From positions 4,804,001-4,868,000 of the forward strand of contig NZ_JAMCOS010000001.1 in the NCBI RefSeq assembly GCF_028069655.1: a stretch of DNA of 64,000 bases, in the 5' to 3' direction. Shown piece after piece: positions 3,917 to 27,407 of this stretch. How positions within the stretch are numbered: position 1 is the first letter of the stretch; every line of letters starts with the position of its first letter. A model generated the notes under the pieces. That model searched no databases. It was not told where the DNA came from and saw only the letters and a program-made list of their open reading frames with translations. This stretch comes from Acidovorax sp. NCPPB 4044. GTDB taxonomy: Bacteria > Pseudomonadota > Gammaproteobacteria > Burkholderiales > Burkholderiaceae_C. The position numbers and the translations under genes are program-made.

Positions 3917-5344
3917 TCAATCCAGCGTTTCCACGCGCAGATGGGTCGCCGGCCCGGCGGCCCCGTCGATGCGGGAGGCCGCCACTGCCCGCACGGCGCC
4001 ATCGCGCGCAGCGCGGGTCAGGGCCAGCAATTGCGGCGCCGGCACCTCCTGGCCTGCCGCAGTGGGCGGTTGCCAGACCTCCATGCGCTCCACCCCGATG
4101 CCGGCGTGGGCGAATGCCGCTGCCAGTGCCGCCAGCGCGGCGCCGCCCGCGCCCTGCGGCACCGGCACGCGCAGGGGGATGCGCAAAAAGTGCCGCGTGA
4201 CCACGTCGTCCATCGGCACCACGGGCCGATCCACCAGGGCGGCCGTGGGGCAGCCCAGCGGCGGAACGGCGCAGCGCGCGGGCCCGCCCGCCTGCGCCAC
4301 GGTCTGCCGGGCCACGTCCACCAGGTCGGCCACCACGGCCGAGGCCGTGGGTTCGGCGCCCGCGCCGGCACCGCAGTGCATCGTGATGCCCTGCGCATCG
4401 CCGCGCACCAGCACCGCGTTCATCCCGCCGTCCACCTGGGCGAGCAGGTGCGTGGCGGGCACCAGCGCGGGGTGCACGCGCAACTGCACCGCCTCGCCCT
4501 GCCGCCGCGCGATGCCGAGCAGCTTCACGGCATGGCCCCAGGCGCGCGCGGCCGCCACGTCGAGCGCGTCCAGGTGGCGGATGCCTTCGACGTGCGCCCG
4601 GTCGAAGCCCACCGGCGTGCCGAAGGCGTTGGCCGCCAGCAGCGCGGTCTTGTGCGCGGCGTCGATGCCGTCCACGTCGAAGGCCGGGTCGGCCTCGGCG
4701 TAGCCCAGCGCCTGCGCTTCCGCCAGCGCGTCGCCGAAAGGCAGGCCGCCGTGGTGCATGCGGCCCAGGATGTAGTTGCTCGTGCCGTTCACGATGCCGG
4801 CCACCCATTCCACGCGGTTGGCGGTGGCGCCTTCCCGCAGCGCCTTGATGACGGGCACACCGCCGGCCACCGCCGCCTCGTAGGCCAGCGGCACGCCGCG
4901 CGCCTCGGCCTGCGCGAAGAGCACGTTGCCGTGCACCGCCAGCAGCGCCTTGTTGGCGGTCACCACGGGCTTGCCGTGGGCGATGGCGGCGGCCACCCAG
5001 TCGCGCGCGGCGCCGGTGCCGCCGGCCACCTCCACCAGCACGTCCACGCCGGGGTGCGTGGCGACGTGCATCGGGTCATCGGTCAGCTGCACGCCGGCGG
5101 CTTCCGGGCCCAGCACGCGCGCCGCGCGCTGCAGGTCGCGCGCGGCCACGGCCACGATCTCGATGCCCCGCCCCGCGCGTGCCGCGATCGCGGCCTGGTT
5201 GCGCGCCAGCACGCGCCAGGTGCCGAGGCCCACGGTGCCGATGCCGATCATGCCCACGCGCAGCGGGCGGGGGATGGCCGCGCCGCCGGCCAGGGCCGGG
5301 GCAGCGGTGGAGGGCAGGGGGCGCCATTGGGGATCGTTGAACAT
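3917..5344 (-). CDS. hom: Homoserine dehydrogenase
   Basis: Converts aspartate semialdehyde to homoserine, the branch point to threonine and methionine. The 475-residue protein has an N-terminal Rossmann motif (GMIGIGTVGLGTWR), the substrate-binding block with TANKALLA, and the catalytic region NGTSNYIL followed by EADPAFDVDG, all typical of the family. A degenerate ACT-like tail is visible near the C-terminus (AAFAHAGIGVERMEV), where threonine feedback acts in relatives. The start ATG at 5344 was chosen because it follows AAAGAGAGAG at good spacing and begins the family alignment; longer in-frame extensions run through the regulatory leader. An attenuator and a Thr/Ile leader peptide lie upstream, so Thr/Ile-responsive transcription is likely. 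metX at 49.9 kb uses its product. Confidence 0.92.
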   Translation of the reverse strand: MFNDPQWRPLPSTAAPALAGGAAIPRPLRVGMIGIGTVGLGTWRVLARNQAAIAARAGRGIEIVAVAARDLQRAARVLGPEAAGVQLTDDPMHVATHPGVDVLVEVAGGTGAARDWVAAAIAHGKPVVTANKALLAVHGNVLFAQAEARGVPLAYEAAVAGGVPVIKALREGATANRVEWVAGIVNGTSNYILGRMHHGGLPFGDALAEAQALGYAEADPAFDVDGIDAAHKTALLAANAFGTPVGFDRAHVEGIRHLDALDVAAARAWGHAVKLLGIARRQGEAVQLRVHPALVPATHLLAQVDGGMNAVLVRGDAQGITMHCGAGAGAEPTASAVVADLVDVARQTVAQAGGPARCAVPPLGCPTAALVDRPVVPMDDVVTRHFLRIPLRVPVPQGAGGAALAALAAAFAHAGIGVERMEVWQPPTAAGQEVPAPQLLALTRAARDGAVRAVAASRIDGAAGPATHLRVETLD

Positions 5345-9774: not shown

Positions 9775-10404
9775 ATGAAACGACGCACTCCGGAGCAGCG
9801 CCTGCTGCTCGAACAGCTCCAGCACATCGCCGCGGGCCTGGGCCAGACCTTCGGCCCGTTCTGCGAGGTCGTCGTGCACGACCTGCTCGACCCGCGCCAC
9901 GCCATCCTCGCCATCCACAACAACCTGTCGGGCCGCGCCGTGGGCGACCCCGCCACCGAGCTGGGCCTGGCGCGCATCCACGATCCGGCGGTGGATCCGG
10001 TGATCGCCAACTACCCCAACCGCTTCGCCGACGGGCGGCAGGCCAAGAGCACCTCCATCGGCATCAAGGACTCCACGGGCCGCTACATCGCGGCCCTGTG
10101 CATGAACGTGGACCTGACGCTGTTCCAGGGCTTCCAGGCCATGCTGGGCCAGTTCACCGCCCTGCCCGGCGCGGTGCCCGCCGCGGAAACGCTCGACCCG
10201 GCCGGTGCCGAGGCGCTGCGCGCGCGCATCGACCAGTTCGCCGCGCGGCTGGCCACCACGCCGCGCCAGCTCAAGGCCGCCGACCGGCGCGCGCTGCTGC
10301 AGGAACTGCGCAAGGCCGGCCTGCTCGACATGCGCCGTGCCATGGAAACCATCGCGGCGCACCTCGGCGTGTCGCGCGCATCGGTGTACGGCTATGCCAA
10401 GTGA
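9775..10404 (+). CDS. YheO/DauR-type PAS-HTH transcriptional regulator
   Basis: A 209-residue regulator with the YheO-like PAS domain over about residues 8-125 (GQTFGPFCEVVVHDL, KSTSIGIKDSTGRYIAALC) and a C-terminal helix-turn-helix (METIAAHLGVSRASVYGYAK). DauR, the best-known member, controls D-arginine catabolism, so a role in sensing an amino acid or imino acid is reasonable. It overlaps the following ornithine cyclodeaminase-like gene by 11 bases, so the two are translationally linked and this regulator probably controls the enzyme pair downstream. Confidence 0.85.
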   Translation: MKRRTPEQRLLLEQLQHIAAGLGQTFGPFCEVVVHDLLDPRHAILAIHNNLSGRAVGDPATELGLARIHDPAVDPVIANYPNRFADGRQAKSTSIGIKDSTGRYIAALCMNVDLTLFQGFQAMLGQFTALPGAVPAAETLDPAGAEALRARIDQFAARLATTPRQLKAADRRALLQELRKAGLLDMRRAMETIAAHLGVSRASVYGYAK

Positions 10405-13410: not shown

Positions 13411-14598
13411 AAACGTTGTTGGAAGTTCGGTATGGAAGTGCGCAAGCGAGGATTGACGGCACAAGAGCGCCAGGAGTTGTGGGCTCGCTGGAAGGCTGGG
13501 CAGACGCTGACTGCCATCGGCGCCGCCCTGGGGAAGGCGCCGGGCTCAATCTACGGATTCCTTGCGACGGATGGTGGCATCAGTCCCAGACAACGTCGTC
13601 GGTCTGCGCATCAGCTACGCATCGATGAGCGCGAGGAGATCTCCCGTGGTTTGATGGCCGGGGTTTCGTTACGGCAGATCGCTACCGGCTTGGGCCGCTC
13701 CCCGTCGACGGTCAGCAAGGAGATCGCGCGCAACGGCGGAGCAGAGAGCTATCGTGCAATCGATGCAGATCGGAGAGCGTGGCAGCAGTCCACGCGTCCC
13801 AAGCCCTGCCGCCTGGCGAACAACCTTCGGTTGCGCGATCAGGTCGCTGCGAAGCTACAGGAGAACTGGTCTCCGCAGCAGATCGCCGGCTGGCTTCGCA
13901 AGCACTCCAATGGAGATTCCAACATGGAGCTGTCGCATGAAACCATCTACCGCAGCCTCTTCATCCAGGCACGCGGCGTCCTGAAGAAGGAGCTCATGGC
14001 GCACCTGCGCAGTCGCAGGCTGATGCGGCGCGCCAAGGTCTCGACCACCAAAGGCCAGCCGCGCGGTCAGATCATCGATGCGGTGTCGATCCGCGAGCGT
14101 CCGGCTCAAGCGCAGGACAGGTCCCTTCCCGGGCATTGGGAGGGGGACCTGATCTCGGGCGCCAAGAACAGCCACATCGCCACGTTGGTCGAGCGGCAGT
14201 CGCGCTACGTTGTGCTGGTACAAGTGAAGGGCAAGGACACCACCAGCGTGGTCGACGCACTCATGCGTGAAGTCCAGAAGCTGCCTGCCGGCCTCATGAA
14301 TACCCTGACCTGGGACCGCGGCTCGGAACTGGCGCAGCACAAGCGGTTCACGCTCGCTACCGACGTGCAGGTGTACTTCTGCGATCCAAGGAGCCCATGG
14401 CAGCGAGGCACCAACGAGAACACCAACGGCCTGCTGCGCCAATACTTCCCGAAGGGTACGGACCTCTCGGTCTTCGACCAACGTCAGCTCGATGCGGTGG
14501 CCGCTCAGCTCAACGCCAGACCACGGCTGACGCTCGGCTTTGAAACGCCCGCCGATACACTGGCAGCTCATGTGTTGACCTGACCGGTTGAACGCACG
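13377..14598 (+). mobile_element. IS30-family insertion sequence (1222 bp) nested in the IS3 element
   Basis: The ends are imperfect inverted repeats of about 26 bases with three mismatches (CGTGCATTCAACCGGTCA on the left; CGTGCGTTCAACCGGTCA read inward on the right). A 5-base direct repeat GCCGC lies at 13372-13376 and 14599-14603. Excising the element with one repeat copy exactly restores the IS3 orfA frame, which fixes the boundaries and shows the order of insertion: IS3 first, IS30 later. The single transposase gene is intact. Confidence 0.88.
13432..14583 (+). CDS. IS30 family transposase
   Basis: A 383-residue transposase, full length for the family. The N-terminal half has two helix-turn-helix regions (for example VSLRQIATGLGRSPSTVSKEI). 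The C-terminal half is a DDE catalytic core: first acid in GHWEGDLI, second in TWDRGSEL, and the glutamate in the RGTNENTNGLLRQYFPKG block. All catalytic acids are present, so the element should be able to move. It lies entirely inside the IS30 ends. Confidence 0.93.
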   Translation: MEVRKRGLTAQERQELWARWKAGQTLTAIGAALGKAPGSIYGFLATDGGISPRQRRRSAHQLRIDEREEISRGLMAGVSLRQIATGLGRSPSTVSKEIARNGGAESYRAIDADRRAWQQSTRPKPCRLANNLRLRDQVAAKLQENWSPQQIAGWLRKHSNGDSNMELSHETIYRSLFIQARGVLKKELMAHLRSRRLMRRAKVSTTKGQPRGQIIDAVSIRERPAQAQDRSLPGHWEGDLISGAKNSHIATLVERQSRYVVLVQVKGKDTTSVVDALMREVQKLPAGLMNTLTWDRGSELAQHKRFTLATDVQVYFCDPRSPWQRGTNENTNGLLRQYFPKGTDLSVFDQRQLDAVAAQLNARPRLTLGFETPADTLAAHVLT

Positions 14599-14624
14599 GC
14601 CGCGTACTTTGCCAAGCAGTCCGG

Positions 14625-15500
14625 GTGAGGTACGCGTTCATTGAACGGGACGAAGGCGACTACGGTGTTCGCAGGCTGTGTGCGGTGATGCAGGTTCATC
14701 CCAGCGGTTATTACACGTGGAAGCAGCAGCCCACCAGCGAGAAGGTGCGCGATGACCAGCGCCTGCTGGGTTTGCTCAAGCAGGCCTGGTTGGAAAGCGG
14801 CTGCGTGTACGGATACCGTAAGCTCACCCAGGACATGCGGGATCTGGGCGAGCGCTGCGGCAAGCATCGAGTCGCCCGACTGCTACGCCAGGCCGGCATC
14901 CGCTCTCAAAGCGGTTATCGCCGGCGCGCGGGTGGCTGCGGGGGTATGCCTGCGGTGGTCGCGCCCAATCATTTGAATCGGCAGTTCATGCCCGAAAAGC
15001 CCAACCGGTCCTGGGCCACCGACATCACTTACATCCGCACCCATGAGGGCTGGCTGTATCTGGCGGTGGTGCTGGACCTGTTCTCGAGGCAGGTGATCGG
15101 CTGGTCTATGGGCAGCCGCATCGATACCGCACTGGTCCTCAATGCTTTGCTGATGGCCCTGTGGCGCCGGCAGCCCAAGGAGACGGTACTTGTGCATTCC
15201 GACCAGGGCTGTCAGTTCACAGGCCATGAATGGCAAGGCTTTCTGCGCGATCACAACCTGGCCAGCAGCATGAGCCGGCGGGGCAACTGCCACGACAACG
15301 CTGTGGTCGAAAGCTTCTTCCAACTGCTCAAGCGCGAGAGGATTCGCCGCCAGATCTACCCCACCCGGCAAGACGCCCGGGCCGATGTCTTCAACTACAT
15401 CGAGATGTTCTACAACCCCAGGCGCCGCCATTCAACAGCCGGCAACCTGTCTCCGATAGAGTTCGAGAAACGCCATTCCCAACGGCTTGGAAGTGTCTAG
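14625..15500 (+). CDS. IS3-family OrfB (DDE integrase core)
   Basis: A 291-residue OrfB of an IS3-family transposase, starting at a GTG that overlaps the remnant orfA stop. It has the HTH_21 block (YGYRKLTQDMRDLG) and an rve integrase core with D in WATDITYI, D in HSDQGCQF and E in NAVVESFFQLLKRE. The reading frame is undamaged. However, OrfB is normally made as a fusion with OrfA by frameshifting, and that link is broken by the IS30 insertion. Confidence 0.9.
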   Translation: MRYAFIERDEGDYGVRRLCAVMQVHPSGYYTWKQQPTSEKVRDDQRLLGLLKQAWLESGCVYGYRKLTQDMRDLGERCGKHRVARLLRQAGIRSQSGYRRRAGGCGGMPAVVAPNHLNRQFMPEKPNRSWATDITYIRTHEGWLYLAVVLDLFSRQVIGWSMGSRIDTALVLNALLMALWRRQPKETVLVHSDQGCQFTGHEWQGFLRDHNLASSMSRRGNCHDNAVVESFFQLLKRERIRRQIYPTRQDARADVFNYIEMFYNPRRRHSTAGNLSPIEFEKRHSQRLGSV

Positions 15501-15700: not shown

Positions 15701-18499
15701 GTGGCGAAATCAGAATCTGAGACAAGGTCAGAACTTATCGACCAGCAACTTGCCTCGGCAGGCTGGAACGTGAAAGACCCGACGCAGGTCGTTGAGGAAT
15801 TCGACATCCTTACTGCACTGCGTGAAGGGGTAGGGGAACCACGCACACCCTACGAAGGTCACCAGTTCAGTGATTACGTCCTGCTCGGAAAAGACCGCAA
15901 GCCGCTGGCGGTGATCGAAGCCAAAAAGACCAGCCGCGATGCCGCCCTTGGCCGCGAGCAAGCCAAGCAGTATTGCTACAACATCCAGAAGCAGCTGGGC
16001 GGCGAACTGCCGTTCTGCTTCTACACCAACGGCCACGAGCTCTATTTCTGGGATCTGGAAAACGCGCCACCGCGCAAGGTCATCGGTTTCCCCACGCGCG
16101 ACGATCTGGAGCGCTTCGCCTATATCCGCCGCAACCGCAAGCCACTCACGCATGAGTTCATCAACACCTCAATTGCCGGCCGTGATTACCAGATCCGCGC
16201 TATTCGCTCAGTGCTCGAAGGCATAGAGCAGAAAAGGCGTGATTTCCTGCTCGTGATGGCAACCGGCACCGGCAAGACGCGCACCTGCATTGCCATGGTC
16301 GATGCGCTGATGCGTGCTGGCCACGCTGAGAAGGTGCTGTTTCTGGTCGACCGCATCGCGTTGCGTGAACAGGCATTGGCCGCCTTCAAGGAGCACATGC
16401 CCAACGAGCCGCGCTGGCCCAATGTGGGTGAAAAGCTGATCGCGACGGATCGTCGTGTGTATGTTGCCACCTACCCGACGATGCTCAACATTATCCGGGA
16501 CGAGGCACAGCACCTGTCGCCGCACTTCTTCGATTTCATCGTCGTCGATGAAAGCCATCGCTCCATCTACAACACCTTTGGCGAAGTGCTGGGCTACTTC
16601 AAGACCATCACGCTGGGCCTCACGGCCACGCCGACCGACATCATCGACCACAACACCTTCCAGCTTTTTCATTGCGAAGATGGCATTCCCACGTTTGCCT
16701 ACACCTATGAAGAAGCCGTGAACAACGTGCCGCCCTACCTCTGCAACTTCCAGGTCATGAAGATTCAGACCAAGTTCCAGATGGAGGGCATCAGCAAGCG
16801 CACCATTTCGCTGGAAGACCAGAAGAAGCTGATCCTCCAGGGCAAGGAAGTTGAAGACATCAACTTCGAGGGCACTCAGCTTGAAAAGCAGGTGATCAAC
16901 AAGGGCACCAACACCCTGATCGTCCGCGAGTTCATGGAAGAAGCCATCAAGGACGCCAACGGCGTGCTGCCAGGCAAGACCATCTTCTTTTGCGCCACCA
17001 AGGCCCATGCCCGGCGCGTGGAAGAAATCTTCGACAAGCTTTACCCGCAGTACCACGGTGAGCTCGCAAAGGTGCTTGTGTCGGATGACCCGCGCGTCTA
17101 CGGCAAAGGTGGCCTGCTCGATCAGTTCACCAACAACGACATGCCTCGCATTGCCATCAGCGTGGACATGCTCGATACCGGCATCGACGTGCGTGAGATC
17201 GTCAACCTCGTGTTCGCCAAGCCGGTCTACTCCTACACCAAGTTCTGGCAGATGGTCGGGCGCGGCACACGCCTTCTGGAAACCAGCAAGCCCAAGCCCT
17301 GGTGCCTTGAGAAGGATGTGTTCCTGATCCTCGACTGCTGGGACAACTTTGAATACTTCAAGCTCAACCCCAAGGGCAAGGAGCTTAAACCGCAGTTGCC
17401 GCTCCCGGTGCGGCTGGTGGGCCTGCGCCTCGACAAGATCGAAAAGGCCAATGACAGCGGCCATGCCGACATCGCCACGAGTGAAGTCGCCAAGCTCCGC
17501 CTGCAGATTGCCGCGCTACCCAAAGAGTCGGTGGTGATCAAGGAAGCCGCCGCCGCGCTGGCGCGGCTGGATGATGACAACTTCTGGATAAGCCTCAGCC
17601 ACGACCTGCTGGAGTTCCTCCGTGCTGACATCAAGCCGCTGTTCCGCACCGTGTCCGAGGCCGACTTCAAAGCCATGCGCTTCGAGCGCGACCTGCTGGA
17701 GTACTCGCTGGCCGTTTTGAGCGACGAAAAGGAACAGGCCGACACCCTCAAGGAAGGCATCGTCGAGCAGATCAGCGAACTGCCGCTCTCCGTCAGCTTC
17801 GTCAAGCAGGAAGAGGACCTGATCCGCGCCGCGCAAACCAGCCACTACTGGGCCAAGGCGGATGAAGACGCCTTCGACGAACTGATCGCCAAGCTCGGCC
17901 CGCTGATGAAATTCCGCGAGCAATCCACCGGCCAGGAGCAAACCCACCTCGATCTGGCCGATGAGCTGCACAAGAAGGAATGGGTGGAGTTCGGCCCGCA
18001 ACACGAGGCGGTCAGCATCACCCGCTACCGCGAAATGGTGGAAAACCTGATCGCCGAACTTACCGCGCACAACCCCGTGCTGCAGAAGATCAAGAACGGC
18101 GAAACAGTGAGCAGCGAAGAGGCCAATGCACTGGCCGAACTGCTGCACGAGGAACACCCGCACATCACTGAAGACCTGCTGCGCCAGGTTTACAAAAACC
18201 GCAAGGCGCGCTTCATCCAGTTCATCCGCCACATCTTGGGCATTGAAGTGCTCAAAAGCTTCCCTGAGGAAGTCAGCGCCGCCTTTGACCAATTCATCCG
18301 CGCCCACACCACGCTCAGCAGCCGGCAGATGGAATTCCTCAATCTGCTGAAGGGCTTCATCATCGAGCGCGAAAAGGTGGAGAAGAAAGACCTGATCAAC
18401 GCCCCCTTCACGGTCATCCATCCGCAGGGCATCCGTGGCGTGTTCAGCCCGAACGAAATCAACGAGATCCTGCAGCTGACCGAACGGTTGGCTGCCTAA
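15701..18499 (+). CDS. hsdR: Type I restriction endonuclease subunit R
   Basis: The 932-residue motor and nuclease subunit of a type I restriction-modification enzyme; it translocates unmethylated DNA and cuts it. Seen: a PD-(D/E)XK nuclease near the N-terminus (D58, E73 and K75 in FSDYVLL and AVIEAKK), Walker A MATGTGKT at 186-193, a DESH box at 283-286, LTATPTD, and motif VI VGRGTRL around residue 520. It is complete. Translation starts at a GTG with AAGGAG ten bases upstream; no ATG fits better. It heads a five-gene operon; hsdM follows after 15 bases. The 182 bases between the IS3 end and this gene should hold the operon promoter, but I cannot place it confidently. Confidence 0.95.
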   Translation: MAKSESETRSELIDQQLASAGWNVKDPTQVVEEFDILTALREGVGEPRTPYEGHQFSDYVLLGKDRKPLAVIEAKKTSRDAALGREQAKQYCYNIQKQLGGELPFCFYTNGHELYFWDLENAPPRKVIGFPTRDDLERFAYIRRNRKPLTHEFINTSIAGRDYQIRAIRSVLEGIEQKRRDFLLVMATGTGKTRTCIAMVDALMRAGHAEKVLFLVDRIALREQALAAFKEHMPNEPRWPNVGEKLIATDRRVYVATYPTMLNIIRDEAQHLSPHFFDFIVVDESHRSIYNTFGEVLGYFKTITLGLTATPTDIIDHNTFQLFHCEDGIPTFAYTYEEAVNNVPPYLCNFQVMKIQTKFQMEGISKRTISLEDQKKLILQGKEVEDINFEGTQLEKQVINKGTNTLIVREFMEEAIKDANGVLPGKTIFFCATKAHARRVEEIFDKLYPQYHGELAKVLVSDDPRVYGKGGLLDQFTNNDMPRIAISVDMLDTGIDVREIVNLVFAKPVYSYTKFWQMVGRGTRLLETSKPKPWCLEKDVFLILDCWDNFEYFKLNPKGKELKPQLPLPVRLVGLRLDKIEKANDSGHADIATSEVAKLRLQIAALPKESVVIKEAAAALARLDDDNFWISLSHDLLEFLRADIKPLFRTVSEADFKAMRFERDLLEYSLAVLSDEKEQADTLKEGIVEQISELPLSVSFVKQEEDLIRAAQTSHYWAKADEDAFDELIAKLGPLMKFREQSTGQEQTHLDLADELHKKEWVEFGPQHEAVSITRYREMVENLIAELTAHNPVLQKIKNGETVSSEEANALAELLHEEHPHITEDLLRQVYKNRKARFIQFIRHILGIEVLKSFPEEVSAAFDQFIRAHTTLSSRQMEFLNLLKGFIIEREKVEKKDLINAPFTVIHPQGIRGVFSPNEINEILQLTERLAA

Positions 18500-18514
18500 A
18501 TAACAGGGCACACC

Positions 18515-20179
18515 ATGCTGCAAAACAACCCCGAACTCAAAAGCAAGATCGACCAGCTCTGGAACAAGTTCTGGAGCGGCGGCATCAGCAACCCGCTCAC
18601 CGCCATCGAGCAGATCACCTACCTGCTGTTCATGAAGCGGCTCGATGAACTGGACCAGAAGCGCCAGGCCGATGCCGAGTGGACTGGCGAGAACTACATC
18701 TCCAAATTCACTGGCACGTGGATTCCGCCCAATGAACGCAACTGGCCAGCAGCGGAGCAGCGCCCCATCGAAAAGCGCAGTCTACGCTGGAGCGAATTCA
18801 AGCGCATGCAGGCTGAAGACATGCTGCAGCACGTGCAGGGCAAGGTGTTCCCCTTTCTCAAGGACCTGAACGGCGCCGAGTCCAACTTCACCCACCACAT
18901 GAAGAATGCGGTCTTTATCATCCCTAAGCCCGCTCTGCTGGTGGAAGCGGTGAAGACCATCGACGACATCTTTGAGGTGATGGAGAAGGACTCGAAGGAA
19001 AAGGGCCAAGCCTTCCAGGACATCCAGGGCGATGTCTACGAGTTCCTGTTGTCCGAGATCGCCACCGCAGGCAAGAATGGCCAATTCCGCACTCCGCGCC
19101 ACATCATCAAACTGATGGCCGACCTGGTGCAGCCACAACTGGGCCACAAGATTGCCGACCCGGCCTGCGGTTCCGGCGGCTTTTTGCTTGGCGCGTATCA
19201 GTACATCGTCACCGAACTCGCAAAAAAAGCGGGCGCCAGAGACATCAGGCCCGATGAAGACGGCTTCACCCGCACCTCGGTGGCCGCCGCGCTCACCGAA
19301 AAAGCGCAAGCCATTCTGGTCGGCTCACTGTGGGGCTATGACATCGACCAGACCATGGTGCGCCTGGGTCTGATGAACCTGATGATGCACGGCATCGACG
19401 AGCCGCGCATCGACTACAAGGACACCCTTAGCAAGAGCTACACCGAGGAAGCCGAATACGACATCGTGATGGCCAACCCGCCCTTCACCGGCAGCATCGA
19501 CAAGGGCGACATCAACGAGCACCTACAACTGGCCACCACCAAGACCGAGCTGCTGTTTGTCGAGAACATCTACCGCCTGCTCAAGAAGGGCGGCACCGCC
19601 TGCGTGATCGTGCCGCAGGGCGTGCTGTTCGGCTCCGGCGGGGCCTTCAAGACGCTGCGCCAGATGCTGATGGAGCGTTGCGACCTCAAGGCCGTGATCA
19701 CCCTGCCCAGTGGCGTGTTCAAACCCTATGCCGGGGTCAGCACAGCCATTCTGCTGTTCACCAAAGTCTGGGGGCCGAAAGACAAGGTGAGCAAAGCCGC
19801 CACCGAACACGTCTGGTTTTACGAAATGGCCGCCGATGGCTATTCGCTGGACGACAAGCGCAGCAAGCAGGAAGGCTTTGGTGACCTGCAGGACATCATT
19901 GCCAGGTACCGCGCTCGCGATGCGGCGACCGATACCGACCGCACCGCCAAATGCTTCATGGTGCCGCGCGCCGAGATTGCCGATGAGAAGAACAACTTCG
20001 ACCTCTCGCTCTCGCGCTACAAGCAAAACGTGTTCGAGGAAGTGCCCTACGACGCGCCGGGCGTGATTCTCGATCGGTTGATTCAGGCTGAGGTCGGCAA
20101 AGTAAAAGAGGCGGACCTGACCAACGTGCAAAGTGGCATCGTGCGCGAGTTGCTGGAGTTGAAGGGGATGGTGGGATGA
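18515..20179 (+). CDS. hsdM: Type I DNA methyltransferase subunit M
   Basis: A 554-residue N6-adenine methyltransferase that pairs with HsdS to protect host DNA and is required for cleavage with HsdR. Seen: the N-terminal helical HsdM_N domain, the SAM-binding motif DPACGSGGF at 215-223, the catalytic NPPF at 321-324, and a target-recognition helper region after it. It is complete and overlaps hsdS by four bases (ATGA), so their levels should be matched. No key residue is missing. Confidence 0.95.
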   Translation: MLQNNPELKSKIDQLWNKFWSGGISNPLTAIEQITYLLFMKRLDELDQKRQADAEWTGENYISKFTGTWIPPNERNWPAAEQRPIEKRSLRWSEFKRMQAEDMLQHVQGKVFPFLKDLNGAESNFTHHMKNAVFIIPKPALLVEAVKTIDDIFEVMEKDSKEKGQAFQDIQGDVYEFLLSEIATAGKNGQFRTPRHIIKLMADLVQPQLGHKIADPACGSGGFLLGAYQYIVTELAKKAGARDIRPDEDGFTRTSVAAALTEKAQAILVGSLWGYDIDQTMVRLGLMNLMMHGIDEPRIDYKDTLSKSYTEEAEYDIVMANPPFTGSIDKGDINEHLQLATTKTELLFVENIYRLLKKGGTACVIVPQGVLFGSGGAFKTLRQMLMERCDLKAVITLPSGVFKPYAGVSTAILLFTKVWGPKDKVSKAATEHVWFYEMAADGYSLDDKRSKQEGFGDLQDIIARYRARDAATDTDRTAKCFMVPRAEIADEKNNFDLSLSRYKQNVFEEVPYDAPGVILDRLIQAEVGKVKEADLTNVQSGIVRELLELKGMVG

Positions 20180-21720
20180 AGTCGCACCGCTTTTCCGAGG
20201 TCGTTACTGACGTCACCGCCAAATTTACGAAAATCAAAGCATCCGACTATCAAGGACAAGGTCAATACAAAATCATTGACCAAGGCAAAGGGTCAGTTGC
20301 TGGATACACAGACGATGCCAGTCTCGTTAATAGACAGTTGCTCCCGGTAGTGGTTTTTGGTGACCACACGCGCACCTTGAAATATGTAGATGAACCAATT
20401 GCACTTGGCGCTGATGGTGCTAAAGCGCTATGGGTAAATCCGGACCTGGCAAGTGCTCGTTATGTTTACTACTACCTACGTTCCATTCAGATCAAGGAGG
20501 CGGGTTATAGCAGGCATTTTAAGTTTCTCAAAGAAGTTGAGATACCAATCCCTTTCAAAGATGACGCCCCAGACTTCGACAACCAAATCCGCATCGCCCA
20601 TTTGCTCGGAAAAGTGGAAGGGCTGATCGCCCAGCGCAAACAGCACTTACAGCAACTCGACGACCTGCTCAAGAGCGTATTTCTGGAGATGTTTGGTGAC
20701 CCTGTGCGGAATGAGAAGAGGTGGGATAAACCTGAGTTGAAAGCCTTCGGCAAGATTTCGACCGGCAACACGCCACCCAGAAATGAGCCTGCAAATTACG
20801 ATGGCGATTTCATCGAGTGGATTAAAACGGACAACATCACCGGTGATGCTGTTTTCGTCACGCCGGCCACCGAGCACCTTTCTGAGGTTGGAGCGAAAAA
20901 GGCGAGAACGGTCACGAACGGTGCCTTGCTTGTGGCCTGCATCGCGGGCAGCGTCGAGTCAATCGGGCGTGCCTCGTTAACAGATAGGACGGTGTCTTTC
21001 AATCAGCAAATCAATGCCATCCAGCCCGACAAGGATGTAAACGCCCTCTATCTGTATGGTTTGTTTAAGTTGTCTGGGGCTTACATACAGAGCCACGCTA
21101 CGAAGGGGATGAAGAAGATTATTACAAAAGGCGATTTTGAGAAGATCTCGATGATCAAGCCGCCCGTTGAGATCCAGAATCAATTCGCTGTCATCGTCGA
21201 AAAAGTCGAAAACATCAAATCCCGCTACCAACAGAGCCTCACCGACCTCGAAGCGCTCTACGGTGCCCTGAGCCAGCAGGCCTTTAAGGGCGAGTTGGAT
21301 TTGTCGCGGGTAGCCGCCCCCATCGAAGGAGAAAACCCCGTGGCCGCTGCCGTTCCTGCGCCCATCACAACACAGGTGATCGAGCTGCCCGAAACCGATT
21401 TACTGTTACCCGCACTACAAGACCGCACACAGCTCGTGCCGCTGCTACGTTTCTGGCTGGAGGCCTATCGCACGCAGCTGGGCAGTGCGGCTTTCTCCCT
21501 CGAGCGCTTCATTGCCGCCGCGCAAACCCGGCTGGCCGAACTGCACCCGGACCATGATTTCACACTTAGTGCGAGCGACTACGAAGCCATCAAGGCGTGG
21601 GTGTTTGATGAGATTAAAAATAGAAAGCTTAAACAAACCCGAGACATTATTTGTATCAACGGCAGGCGGCAGTTCGGCAATCAGATTTTGTTGCGTGCCA
21701 GGAGGTACGCTCAGCAATGA
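20176..21720 (+). CDS. hsdS: Type I specificity subunit S with C-terminal extension
   Basis: A 514-residue specificity subunit. Two target-recognition domains (about 1-165 and 220-330) are each followed by a conserved helical spacer: IAHLLGKVEGLIAQRKQHL with FLEMFGDP, and QFAVIVEKVENIKSRYQQSL with LSQQAFKGELDLSR. These would read a bipartite DNA site. HsdS proteins usually stop soon after the second spacer; here about 136 residues follow, from 379, with a Pro/Ala linker and a helical region (LVPLLRFWLEAYRTQLG, SASDYEAIKAWVFDEIKN). The target-recognition DNA is more AT-rich than hsdM, as expected for exchanged domains. It overlaps the next gene by four bases. Confidence 0.93.
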   Translation: MKSHRFSEVVTDVTAKFTKIKASDYQGQGQYKIIDQGKGSVAGYTDDASLVNRQLLPVVVFGDHTRTLKYVDEPIALGADGAKALWVNPDLASARYVYYYLRSIQIKEAGYSRHFKFLKEVEIPIPFKDDAPDFDNQIRIAHLLGKVEGLIAQRKQHLQQLDDLLKSVFLEMFGDPVRNEKRWDKPELKAFGKISTGNTPPRNEPANYDGDFIEWIKTDNITGDAVFVTPATEHLSEVGAKKARTVTNGALLVACIAGSVESIGRASLTDRTVSFNQQINAIQPDKDVNALYLYGLFKLSGAYIQSHATKGMKKIITKGDFEKISMIKPPVEIQNQFAVIVEKVENIKSRYQQSLTDLEALYGALSQQAFKGELDLSRVAAPIEGENPVAAAVPAPITTQVIELPETDLLLPALQDRTQLVPLLRFWLEAYRTQLGSAAFSLERFIAAAQTRLAELHPDHDFTLSASDYEAIKAWVFDEIKNRKLKQTRDIICINGRRQFGNQILLRARRYAQQ

Positions 21721-23489
21721 AATTACTCCGCTTGAAGATCACCGACCCAGGCGGCTTTCGCAGCCTGCCCTGTGGGTTCGAGCACAACTTCCGCACCGAG
21801 TGGAACTTGCAGGACGAACTGGCGCAAGCGAATGACTTTGCGCCTTTCGTTTGCGCCGGGCCCAATGGCAGCGGAAAATCCAACCTGCTTGAAGCGCTGG
21901 CGGCGATCTTCTTTCAGCTGGAGCTCCTGCGGGTGCGCCGTAGCTTTCTGCCTGAGGTGCTGCAGGACGAGAACTTGCATACTTCACCAACCGGATTTGA
22001 GCTGGAGTACTTAATCAAGGTTCCGGTGATGTATACCGCCGTTGGATCTTCCCAATGGTTCAAGGTGGTGGTAAGTAAAAGACCAGACGCTAAGGAAGTC
22101 AAATGGTGGGTTTTTGACTCAAAAGATCAACCCTATGACGCGCTCAATACGATAGTCATCGACCATCTAATTCCACAGGTATTAGGTTACTCGTCAGGCG
22201 AAAATGAAATCCTGAGTCTGCCCTTTTTCAAGATGCGTTTCGTGCAGTTCGACGAGTACTGGAACGCTCTCGTCAAACAGTCCCGTTATTCAGGCCAACC
22301 TGAAACACGGCTGGTCTATCTCGACAGCGGCTTCAGCCAGGCCATCTTGCTGTGCAATCTGTTGTTCCAGGATGAAGCCACCTTGCTGCCATTCCGTGAG
22401 GACATGGGCATCGGAGAGCTGAAGGAATTTCGCATCATCTTGCGGAGGAGTATCCCTGTCACGCGTCATCAGGTGGACGCGTTCACATCGGGTGATTACA
22501 TCTTGCCCACCGAAGCAGAGGATGGACGCTTTGTGGATACTGGTGCGATCTATCTGGAGCCAGACACCGGAGACTATCGGCTCAAGCTTCTGCAAGGTTT
22601 GGAAGGTGATGAGCGTACTTCGATCATCGAGAAGCTCAAGCGTTGCGCCACGCTGCACTTCCACAATGAGGCATCGGACACTCTAACCTTAGATTACCTT
22701 GTCAATGAGCAGACCAAGCAAGCCTTTCGCGCCAACTTTGATGACAAGCCTATTGGCTTATTCCAAGCGCTGCAAGTCCTTCTGACACTGAATCTGTATT
22801 CGGTCAGTGAGGTGCAGAAGTCGGGGCTTTACACCTCGACCAGTCACTACGTCAGCGAAACAGTGCCGACCCTGGCGTCCGATCAGCGCGCCACGCGCAT
22901 CAAAAACTTCTACTTCACGAAGCAGGGCGTTGAAAAACCGATGCTTCTCAAAGAGTTGTCGGATGGCGAGCACCAGTTGCTGCACAGTCTCGGCCTGTGC
23001 CTGCTATTCCGCGAGACCAACAGCCTTTTCCTGCTTGACGAGCCCGAGACGCACTTTAACCCCGACTGGCGCGCCAACTTCATCAGCCGCTTGCGCCAGT
23101 GCCTGCCCGGCAGTGGTGAGTTCGCGCAGGAGATGCTGATCACCACCCACACGCCATTCCTGATTTCCGATAGCAAGCCGGAGAAGGTGCTGGTGTTTGC
23201 CAAGGACAAGGCGAGCGGTGAGGTGAACATCAGCCACCCGCCGTACAACACGCTGGGCGCTTCGATCAACAAGATCACCATGAACACTTTCAGCAAACGC
23301 GAAACCATCGGGGGCCATGCGCATTCCTTGCTGGAAGCGATGCGAGAGCGTTATGAACAGGGTGTCGACGACAAGAATGCCCTGATCACGGAGATTGATC
23401 AGCAGCTCGGTGATTCGGTGGAAAAAGTGCTGCTGATCAAGGCTATTCTTGAAGGCGATCAGTTAGGCAATGGGGAGGCGCAGGACTGA
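21717..23489 (+). CDS. Restriction-system-associated AAA ATPase (OLD/RecF/PtuA-like)
   Basis: A 590-residue ABC-type ATPase of the OLD/RecF/SMC group. Seen: Walker A GPNGSGKS at 48-55, ABC signature LSDGEHQ at 414-420, Walker B LFLLDEPETH at 437-446, and the H-loop THTP at 477-480. About 350 residues of family-specific insert lie between Walker A and the signature. No TOPRIM domain is seen, so it is not a complete OLD nuclease. The family is known to me mainly next to type I restriction genes. With the following HNH gene it matches the Septu design (PtuA ATPase plus PtuB HNH). Start and stop both overlap neighbours by ATGA, so it belongs to the hsd operon. Confidence 0.88.
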   Translation: MKLLRLKITDPGGFRSLPCGFEHNFRTEWNLQDELAQANDFAPFVCAGPNGSGKSNLLEALAAIFFQLELLRVRRSFLPEVLQDENLHTSPTGFELEYLIKVPVMYTAVGSSQWFKVVVSKRPDAKEVKWWVFDSKDQPYDALNTIVIDHLIPQVLGYSSGENEILSLPFFKMRFVQFDEYWNALVKQSRYSGQPETRLVYLDSGFSQAILLCNLLFQDEATLLPFREDMGIGELKEFRIILRRSIPVTRHQVDAFTSGDYILPTEAEDGRFVDTGAIYLEPDTGDYRLKLLQGLEGDERTSIIEKLKRCATLHFHNEASDTLTLDYLVNEQTKQAFRANFDDKPIGLFQALQVLLTLNLYSVSEVQKSGLYTSTSHYVSETVPTLASDQRATRIKNFYFTKQGVEKPMLLKELSDGEHQLLHSLGLCLLFRETNSLFLLDEPETHFNPDWRANFISRLRQCLPGSGEFAQEMLITTHTPFLISDSKPEKVLVFAKDKASGEVNISHPPYNTLGASINKITMNTFSKRETIGGHAHSLLEAMRERYEQGVDDKNALITEIDQQLGDSVEKVLLIKAILEGDQLGNGEAQD

Positions 23490-24558
23490 TGCTTTTTCCG
23501 TACACCTATGTGCCGCATCGGATGGAAAAGATGAGACGTTTATCGACTTCATCTTCTACGCGGTGTGGTGCCAGGCACCGTCAAAAGGTCTCTATCGTCT
23601 GGAGCTGTTCGCCTGGAATCCTGAGTTGCTTGAAGTGATGACGGCGTTTCACTACGACGACAGCAAAGGGGCCGAGTTTTTTGCAGGACATGTAGAACGC
23701 ATCTATGCACTCTTCGCGCCCTTGAGCGCTTGTCAGGTCGAGCAGCTTCGTCTCTGGTACAGGGCGAACAACGATGTGGAGCGCGTGTGTGCAAACGACC
23801 CCGCCATGTCGCTGAAGCGATACGCTGACTTCCCTGCGGAGCTGACGAATCTACATGATCAGCTGGCATCGTTCTTTAAAGGTCTGTATTCGCATGTGGA
23901 GATTGCCGCGCTGAAAAAGTGGACCGGTGGCATTGATGATCACTACCAAACCTTTGTGCAGACCAACAAGGCAGGGAAGTGCCCGTTTTGCGGGATGAAC
24001 GATTTGCTGGGCGAATACCATAGCAAGCGCGAGGCCTACGATCACTATTTGCCCAAGGCACTGTACCCGTTCAATTCCATCAACTTTCACAACCTAGTCC
24101 CAGCTTGTCACCACTGCAACAGCAGCTACAAGACCAGTAAAGATCCAGCTTACACACCAAAAGATCCCGCCAAAGCAGCTCATCGTCGTGCGGTTTTCTA
24201 TCCTTACAAAAAAGAAACGCACTCCATTGAGTTGCAAATCAATCTGCAGCACTCCAATATTTCCATATTAGCCCCGGAAGATATTTCCTTGCAATTTGGC
24301 CCCGTCGGCATTGCAGAGGAGATTGAAACTTGGAAAGACGTGTACGGCATTGAAGAACGCTACAAAGCTAAAATTTGCGGAGAAAATGAGGGAAAGTACT
24401 GGCTCACACAAGTGCTCGACGAATGGAAAGAAGATGGTCGAAATCCAGCTGATTTTTTGGCAACCTTGGCACGGCAAACCAAGAATTCTCCATATGCCGA
24501 GTGCAATTTTCTGAAAAAACCGTTCCTCGACGCTTGCCACAAGATTGGTGTCTTTTAG
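23489..24558 (+). CDS. HNH endonuclease-like protein (PtuB-like), apparent frameshift near its start
   Basis: The protein has a zinc-bound HNH fold at nucleotides 23980-24120: CPFC, then DHYLPK, then PACHHCN. An ATG at 23489 overlaps the ATPase stop (ATGA) and encodes MLFPYTYVPHRMEKM, the kind of start expected here, but that frame ends after 49 codons. The long HNH frame becomes protein-like only from about 23537 (TFIDFIFYAVW). One missing base near 23530-23537 would join them. So the gene may be truncated, use recoding, or contain a sequence error. An alternative start at 23470 gives an out-of-family N-terminus. With the ATPase it would form a Septu-like nuclease pair. Confidence 0.75.

Positions 24559-24728: not shown

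Positions 24729-27407
<2,679 letters not shown>

Follow-up and report, generated by a model that had tools for sequence, protein, structure and literature searches.

The 64,000-nucleotide stretch of Acidovorax sp. NCPPB 4044 analyzed here (the window) carries an operon in which a type I restriction-modification system is extended by two further genes. Between 15701 and 24558 on the plus strand, five open reading frames (ORFs) follow each other in the order hsdR, hsdM, hsdS, OLD/PtuA-type ATPase and HNH (Table 1), and the head-to-tail arrangement described in an earlier note on this DNA was confirmed. Comparison with other genomes gives good support for this architecture, i.e., a conserved gene set in a conserved order, and for the ATPase and HNH pair as a regular part of the type I operon. 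As to function, the reading we prefer, with a probability of roughly 0.45, is a type I enzyme with a PtuAB-like ATPase/HNH effector that would be tethered via a C-terminal tail of HsdS and fired as a guard, like PrrC for EcoprrI. Not all five frames are intact in this strain. Because the HNH frame is broken near codon 17, a description as five complete genes is not right for the window copy.

Conservation of the five-gene order

Loci for comparison were collected with a profile of the HNH protein. The best 80 of the 114 loci confirmed in one-per-species genomes and one locus from viral contigs gave a set of 81. At the protein level there were 1896 HNH matches, and among the 120 listed (one being the window's own) 19 were used in alignment A1 and 13 in alignment A2. 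The ATPase gene lies directly upstream of the HNH gene in 77 of the 81 loci, and HsdS precedes the pair in 73. The complete order R-M-S-ATPase-HNH is present as single ORFs in 52 loci and, with split ORFs allowed, in 59. Since it recurs in 59 of 81 loci, the order is beyond chance.

Contig ends account for most loci short of five genes. In the four loci with only ATPase and HNH, the contig starts at most 510 bases before the ATPase ORF, and of the four loci without ATPase, two (L036, L071) begin at a contig end and two (L098, L110) are HNH fragments. No other gene order occurred in the 81 loci, L056 having an additional weak HsdS match beyond HNH, and no near-complete HNH gene of the subfamily was found without the ATPase where upstream sequence was present. 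The genes are also closely coupled: in-frame coupled junctions were found for ATPase/HNH in 69 of 77 cases (67 one-base TRATG, 2 four-base), for hsdM/hsdS in 60 of 68 and for hsdS/ATPase in 48 of 73.

The loci come from Proteobacteria, Desulfobacterota-type bacteria, Chlorobiaceae, the cyanobacterium Halomicronema, Nitrospirales, Lentisphaerae, Verrucomicrobia, Paenibacillus and others (the phylum of some loci is our assumption). The system is rare: counting the window genome in both cases, 4 of 100 relatives and 2 of 398 phylum genomes have a protein that scores above the cut-off of TIGR04435, the family of the ATPase. HNH relatives occurred in 5 of 72,556 plasmid records, one of them (Kovacikia) with at least 80% coverage, and in none of 50,697 phage records; the HNH subfamily has its main home outside the phage and plasmid records searched. 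On the Kovacikia minuta plasmid pB (L127, 4656-8076), hsdR, a methyltransferase, a restriction system-associated AAA ATPase and HNH are present, and a 675-base hypothetical gene stands alone between methyltransferase and ATPase, at the place expected for hsdS (the gene table is incomplete). The locus from the viral contigs (L111, IMGVR_UViG_2706794637_000004) has the full five-gene operon and could represent a prophage or an island classed wrongly.

More distant relatives were sampled as eight regions (L116-L123) around ATPase matches in other genomes; among the lower matches in relatives only those in G058, G019 and G062 were taken. Two regions (L116, L119) have the same five genes, and four (L117, L118, L120, L121) have HsdS, recognized by Pfam or PADLOC, ATPase and an HNH-type gene consecutively. 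The type I backbones of these four are only remotely related to that of the window: HsdR matched that of the window with 151 bits in L117, 143 in L120 and 663 in L121, whereas full-length HsdR of the main set reaches about 1300-2050 bits. L118 has no recognized HsdR and a split ATPase, and it shows a weak HsdM match after HNH. Scores with the HNH profile were 113 (L117), 96 (L118), 95 (L120) and 19 bits (L121, a weak match). L121, from G058, is a divergent R-M-S-ATPase-HNH-like array, with an HsdS of 643 amino acids whose end is unlike the tail family and a 639-amino acid ORF past the HNH-like gene. L122 has a PDC-M01-like pair and no recognized type I genes, and L123 has an ATPase match and no HNH on a 5.5-kb contig. 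As these two regions indicate, PtuAB-like pairs in general are not restricted to type I operons.

HsdS tail and co-variation with the ATPase

In the loci of the main set HsdS has a median length of 524 amino acids (75 ORFs, fragments included), and the window protein has 514. About 115 residues follow the second conserved region, and most blocks of this tail are better conserved than the recognition domains in 70 aligned HsdS. Two tail profiles were made from hand-chosen HsdS, a longer one (A4, 30 tails) and one of the last part (A5, 23 tails). In 349 phylum genomes, A5 gave three strong matches (E up to about 1e-12), in the window, G149 and G395, all adjoining the ATPase and HNH genes; only G395 is independent, because the window and G149 (L118) are rows of A5. 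As an equally large phylum draw has HsdS in 181 of its 349 genomes, HsdS proteins do not generally carry the tail. Four weak A5 matches (E 0.003-0.009) were to FtsZ (three) and a chemotaxis receptor (one). With A4 we found one more genome in a class draw (G806, 369 genomes) and one in an order draw (G904, 399 genomes). Both have the full five genes and neither is a row of A4, G904 being probably the same locus as L057 of the main set.

To relate the tail to its neighbors, pairwise distances were compared over 49 sets (48 complete loci and the window), leaving out loci with split, cut or missing genes. Distances of HsdR, HsdM, ATPase and HNH are strongly correlated (pairwise r 0.72-0.94; ATPase with HsdM and HsdR 0.84-0.85), as shared history would give. 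After removal of HsdR and HsdM, the ATPase still followed the HsdS tail (partial r 0.43, 0/1000 permutations, a count that overstates certainty for related sequences, as do those below). For the whole ATPase against the HsdS regions CR1, TRD2 and CR2, partial r was -0.09 to 0.04, although the third and fourth ATPase quarters gave 0.20 with CR2 (17/1000 and 22/1000). The HNH protein does not follow the tail (0.07, 180/1000; HNH core 0.15, 41/1000), and the last ATPase quarter correlates with the C-terminal part of HNH (0.27, 0/1000).

The simplest reading of this co-variation is a contact between ATPase and tail. The main alternative is block recombination of tail and ATPase. Simple linkage may also be the cause, yet the signal persists over the length of the ATPase, the partial r with the tail being 0.28-0.35 for each quarter. 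The occurrence of the tail beside the pair and the co-variation lend indirect support to the suggestion in the earlier note that the two modules share the specificity subunit.

Properties of the encoded proteins

The hsdR, hsdM and hsdS genes are complete, as the earlier note had stated, with family domains and the motifs expected for HsdR and HsdM. HsdR matches HSDR_N, ResIII and EcoEI_R_C in Pfam and REase_I in PADLOC (525 bits), with D-x-ExK and DESH motifs; HsdM matches N6_Mtase and HsdM_N (MTase_I, 559 bits), with DPACGSG and NPPF; and HsdS matches Methylase_S (Specificity_I, 511 bits), being the sole PF01420 match found in its genome. The nuclease/translocase, methyltransferase and specificity domains of a type I restriction-modification system are thus all present. 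HsdR is similar to EcoAI/EcoEI-type enzymes but scores below the EcoAI equivalog cut-off (269 vs 550 bits). What sets the operon apart from type I systems in general are the two further conserved genes and the HsdS C-terminal tail.

The ATPase is a clear member of NCBIfam family TIGR04435 ("restriction system-associated AAA family ATPase"; 753 bits, cut-off 300, residues 1-580). The name covers one protein, whereas the HNH partner and the HsdS tail lie outside it, and a full-text literature search gave no paper with this accession. Pfam matches were AAA_21, AAA_15, SMC_N and ABC_tran only. Walker A, signature and Walker B motifs are present as noted earlier (here with bounds 48-56, 414-420 and 436-446), and the H-loop is conserved as well. 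The motif positions are 90-100% identical in 42 aligned sequences, window included, except P49 (79%) and S436 (76%). The predicted fold is PtuA-like, so that both the PtuA-type fold and the ABC motifs of Septu appear to be present.

In the HNH protein, the core CxxC...DH...N...CxxCN is invariant or nearly so in 43 relatives. The ORF reached no Pfam family above its cut-off; the best PADLOC families were PDC-M62B (56 bits) and PDC-M01B (53 bits), with PtuB lower at 34 bits. A model of an undisrupted relative, compared with VIA-align, matched retron PtuB chains, less surely than the ATPase matched PtuA. With about 356 amino acids the HNH protein is longer than these chains (205-250 residues). 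A Foldseek search of the HNH model against the PDB returned nothing at E 0.001, and Rad50 fragments found with the HNH profile among PDB sequences (E 0.31-0.4) were taken as chance.

The likeness to Septu seen in the earlier note holds for the predicted folds, less surely for that of HNH, and does not extend to membership in Septu proper. By sequence, Septu was rejected on curated cut-offs, since the ATPase reached 40 bits with the retron Ec78 PtuA model NF041760 (cut-off 500) and the HNH protein 22 bits with TIGR02646 (cut-off 52). Moreover, instead of forming a stand-alone two-gene operon, the pair belongs to a type I operon of five genes. Both proteins find their best structural matches in type I-A retrons (Ec78/Eco7, Ec83), which also have a PtuAB-type effector under a second module. 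Here, the controller would be HsdRMS and not a reverse transcriptase with msDNA: there is no reverse transcriptase among the operon genes, to go with an msr-msd next to ptuAB, and the two upstream genes are transposases.

The disrupted HNH gene

According to the earlier note, hsdM, hsdS, the ATPase gene and the HNH gene are joined by ATGA overlaps. This is correct for hsdM/hsdS and hsdS/ATPase, but at the last junction the ATPase stop overlaps an ATG at 23489 as TGATG, preceded by a purine-rich stretch that by eye resembles a ribosome-binding site. This start is out of frame with the body of the HNH gene, and what had been taken as a normal junction is instead the mark of a disrupted gene. The first 16 residues of the relatives correspond to 23489-23536, and the remainder corresponds to approximately 23537-24555 in a different frame, while translation from the coupled start alone gives 49 amino acids. 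When the window ORF was aligned with 19 relatives, 18 of these started at the matching methionine, and P0112 is annotated from a later one. A 362-amino acid ORF ending at 24558 begins at 23470, inside the ATPase gene. Its N-terminus is spurious, because the relatives start in frame at the methionine matching 23489 and the matches of the window are split over two frames. A programmed frameshift at this site was rejected, as the aligned relatives are in frame and no obvious slippery run was seen by eye.

Given the disrupted frame, the window copy probably restricts and modifies, but without a normal HNH effector. We consider it fairly probable that in this copy only, the ATPase-HNH half is dead weight, the break being real and only hsdRMS, perhaps with a free ATPase, being at work. 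Besides the two-frame match and the 49-residue product, damage elsewhere agrees with this. L069 has a disrupted HNH as well (just after residue 16, about 25 residues lost, 10020-10067, with the ATPase split too), as has L066 near residue 60 (near 4020), and only fragments are left in L098 and L110. Some loci that are otherwise complete have split or interrupted ORFs for hsdM (L042, L078, L095), the ATPase (L069, L073, L078, L088, L097) or hsdS (L074), with about 2 kb of other sequence within the ATPase gene of L097. On the other hand, the catalytic half of HNH is open, and the in-frame ATG at 23470 could still serve as its start, with a foreign N-terminus as a result, and a sequencing or assembly error would be another source of the frame break and of the two-frame match. 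Undisrupted HNH copies exist in relatives. The break in L069 lies at the same place as that in the window, by chance or as an unexplained recurrence.

Proposed mechanism and alternatives

Three known systems, set beside the anatomy of the operon, suggest that a PtuAB-like nuclease is held by the type I complex via the HsdS tail, and that this complex also does the sensing for it. PrrC, a tRNA anticodon nuclease embedded in the type IC operon of EcoprrI, combines an ATPase and an anticodon nuclease in one protein. It belongs to another protein family than the pair found here, where the nuclease is a separate HNH protein, and we infer the guard role by analogy. PrrC is described as a guard of restriction that is encoded inside a type I operon and activated on restriction enzyme inhibition, which makes it a second effector within a type I operon as in the present case (PMC12707154). 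The PtuAB pair of retron-Eco7 degrades tRNA-Tyr and is neutralized by the reverse transcriptase and msr-msd (PMC11555353). Septu EcB88 cuts tRNA-Tyr on infection, with both the Walker motifs and the HNH residues needed (PMC13096335). WonAB of Vibrio likewise consists of an OLD-type ATPase and a nuclease, and its activation inhibits translation, but its nuclease has a PD-(D/E)xK fold and the available text describes no restriction operon for it (PMC12137116).

In the mechanism we propose, the ATPase would dock on the HsdS tail, and the methyltransferase or restriction complex would keep the pair inactive. The trigger could be phage anti-restriction proteins or modified DNA that stall or strip the complex, or an HsdR translocation that does not finish the invader. 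The ATPase would then license the HNH subunit to cleave tRNA or nicked DNA, and the infection would be aborted, i.e., PrrC-like guarding with a Septu-type weapon. With the same tentativeness, the operons may be viewed as a distinct type I class in which a C-terminal domain of HsdS docks a PtuAB-like nuclease and the restriction enzyme, in place of the retron reverse transcriptase and msDNA, is sensor and antitoxin for an effector that cuts tRNA or DNA. This would be a five-subunit restriction-plus-abortive-infection machine spread over many phyla and, if the distant relatives are a guide, over at least two type I families. A point that weighs against a general tie between tail and pair is that A4 gave no match to HsdS of L118, L120 and L121, and that L120 and L121 have no recognizable tail.

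We rank this guard first, an integrated role in DNA destruction second and an unrelated passenger third; the dead-copy reading of the window is compatible with each. In the second explanation, which appears less likely, the HsdS tail brings the pair to DNA on which the type I enzyme is engaged, and the pair adds processive or nick-directed cleavage of DNA, giving a better restriction enzyme and no abortive guard. The tail and its co-variation with the ATPase agree with it equally, but the two other PtuAB pairs mentioned above cut tRNA, and HsdR keeps its own nuclease motif, so that an added DNA nuclease is not obviously needed.

The third explanation, an independent Septu-like system that shares only the operon promoter and is held by defence-island linkage, could draw on PtuAB-like pairs without type I genes such as that of L122, on DarTG2, which the accessible text of PMC12255303 describes as embedded in a type I system, and on other genes inside the operon. 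Such genes, examined as a sample of 10 accessory ORFs, vary between loci and occupy the hsdR-hsdM or hsdM-hsdS gaps (L037, L053, L059, L063, L073, L082, L089, L096, L102, L108); they encode Bro-N, KilA-N, RhuM (once with Fic), a YhcG-type PDDEXK nuclease with DUF1016, and Schlafen-AlbA_2 with HATPase_c_4. A passenger is nevertheless improbable, because unlike these variable inserts near-complete HNH was not found free of the ATPase where upstream sequence was present, the tail matches outside the profile rows all adjoin the pair, and the divergence of the ATPase parallels that of the type I backbone.

PtuAB-type effectors are known alone, as Septu, and under retrons, and type I restriction would be a third setting. 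If the guard mechanism is correct, restriction enzymes would set off a suicide nuclease that is linked to them via the DNA-specificity subunit, the TIGR04435 ATPase family would have a role, HsdS a candidate docking site, and the PrrC principle would be widened to a new effector. A plain type I restriction annotation of such loci overlooks two genes. The parts have already been named; for the combination with the HsdS tail, a full-text search, which did not reach Krishnan et al. 2020 and Payne et al. 2024, found neither an earlier description nor a test of the proposed mechanism.

Genomic context

Table 1. Positions of the operon genes and the HsdS tail in the window.
Feature	Position	Strand	Description
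hsdR	15701..18499	+	Type I restriction subunit, 932 aa, GTG start; PD-ExK nuclease motif, SF2 translocase, EcoEI_R_C C-terminus
hsdM	18515..20179	+	N6-adenine methyltransferase subunit, 554 aa
hsdS	20176..21720	+	Specificity subunit, 514 aa
HsdS C-terminal tail	21376..21717	+	Residues ~401-514; candidate docking module for ATPase
ATPase	21717..23489	+	OLD/PtuA-type ABC ATPase, 590 aa, TIGR04435 restrict_AAA_1
HNH nuclease gene	23489..24558	+	Probable PtuB-like fold; frame broken near codon 17

The operon has a GC content of about 53-59%, compared to about 60-76% elsewhere in the window, and is thus AT-richer. It is flanked by two transposase genes upstream and by gyrB, recognized by eye, downstream. 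The transposase genes, of the IS30 and IS3 families, occupy 13432-15500 directly upstream of hsdR, and the IS3-family protein (291 amino acids) covers model positions 90-369. At 24729-27359 and the corresponding site of 16 genomes from the same genus (L168-L183), the region past gyrB looks like a restriction-modification hotspot: five of the 16 regions (L170, L172, L177, L178, L182) have ORFs matching the window HsdM or HsdR with 56-163 bits. The five-gene set was present in none of these 16 regions, three of them (L168, L169, L171) ending less than 5 kb beyond gyrB and L177 after about 6 kb. Another genome of the same genus as the window, G014, also carries the operon.

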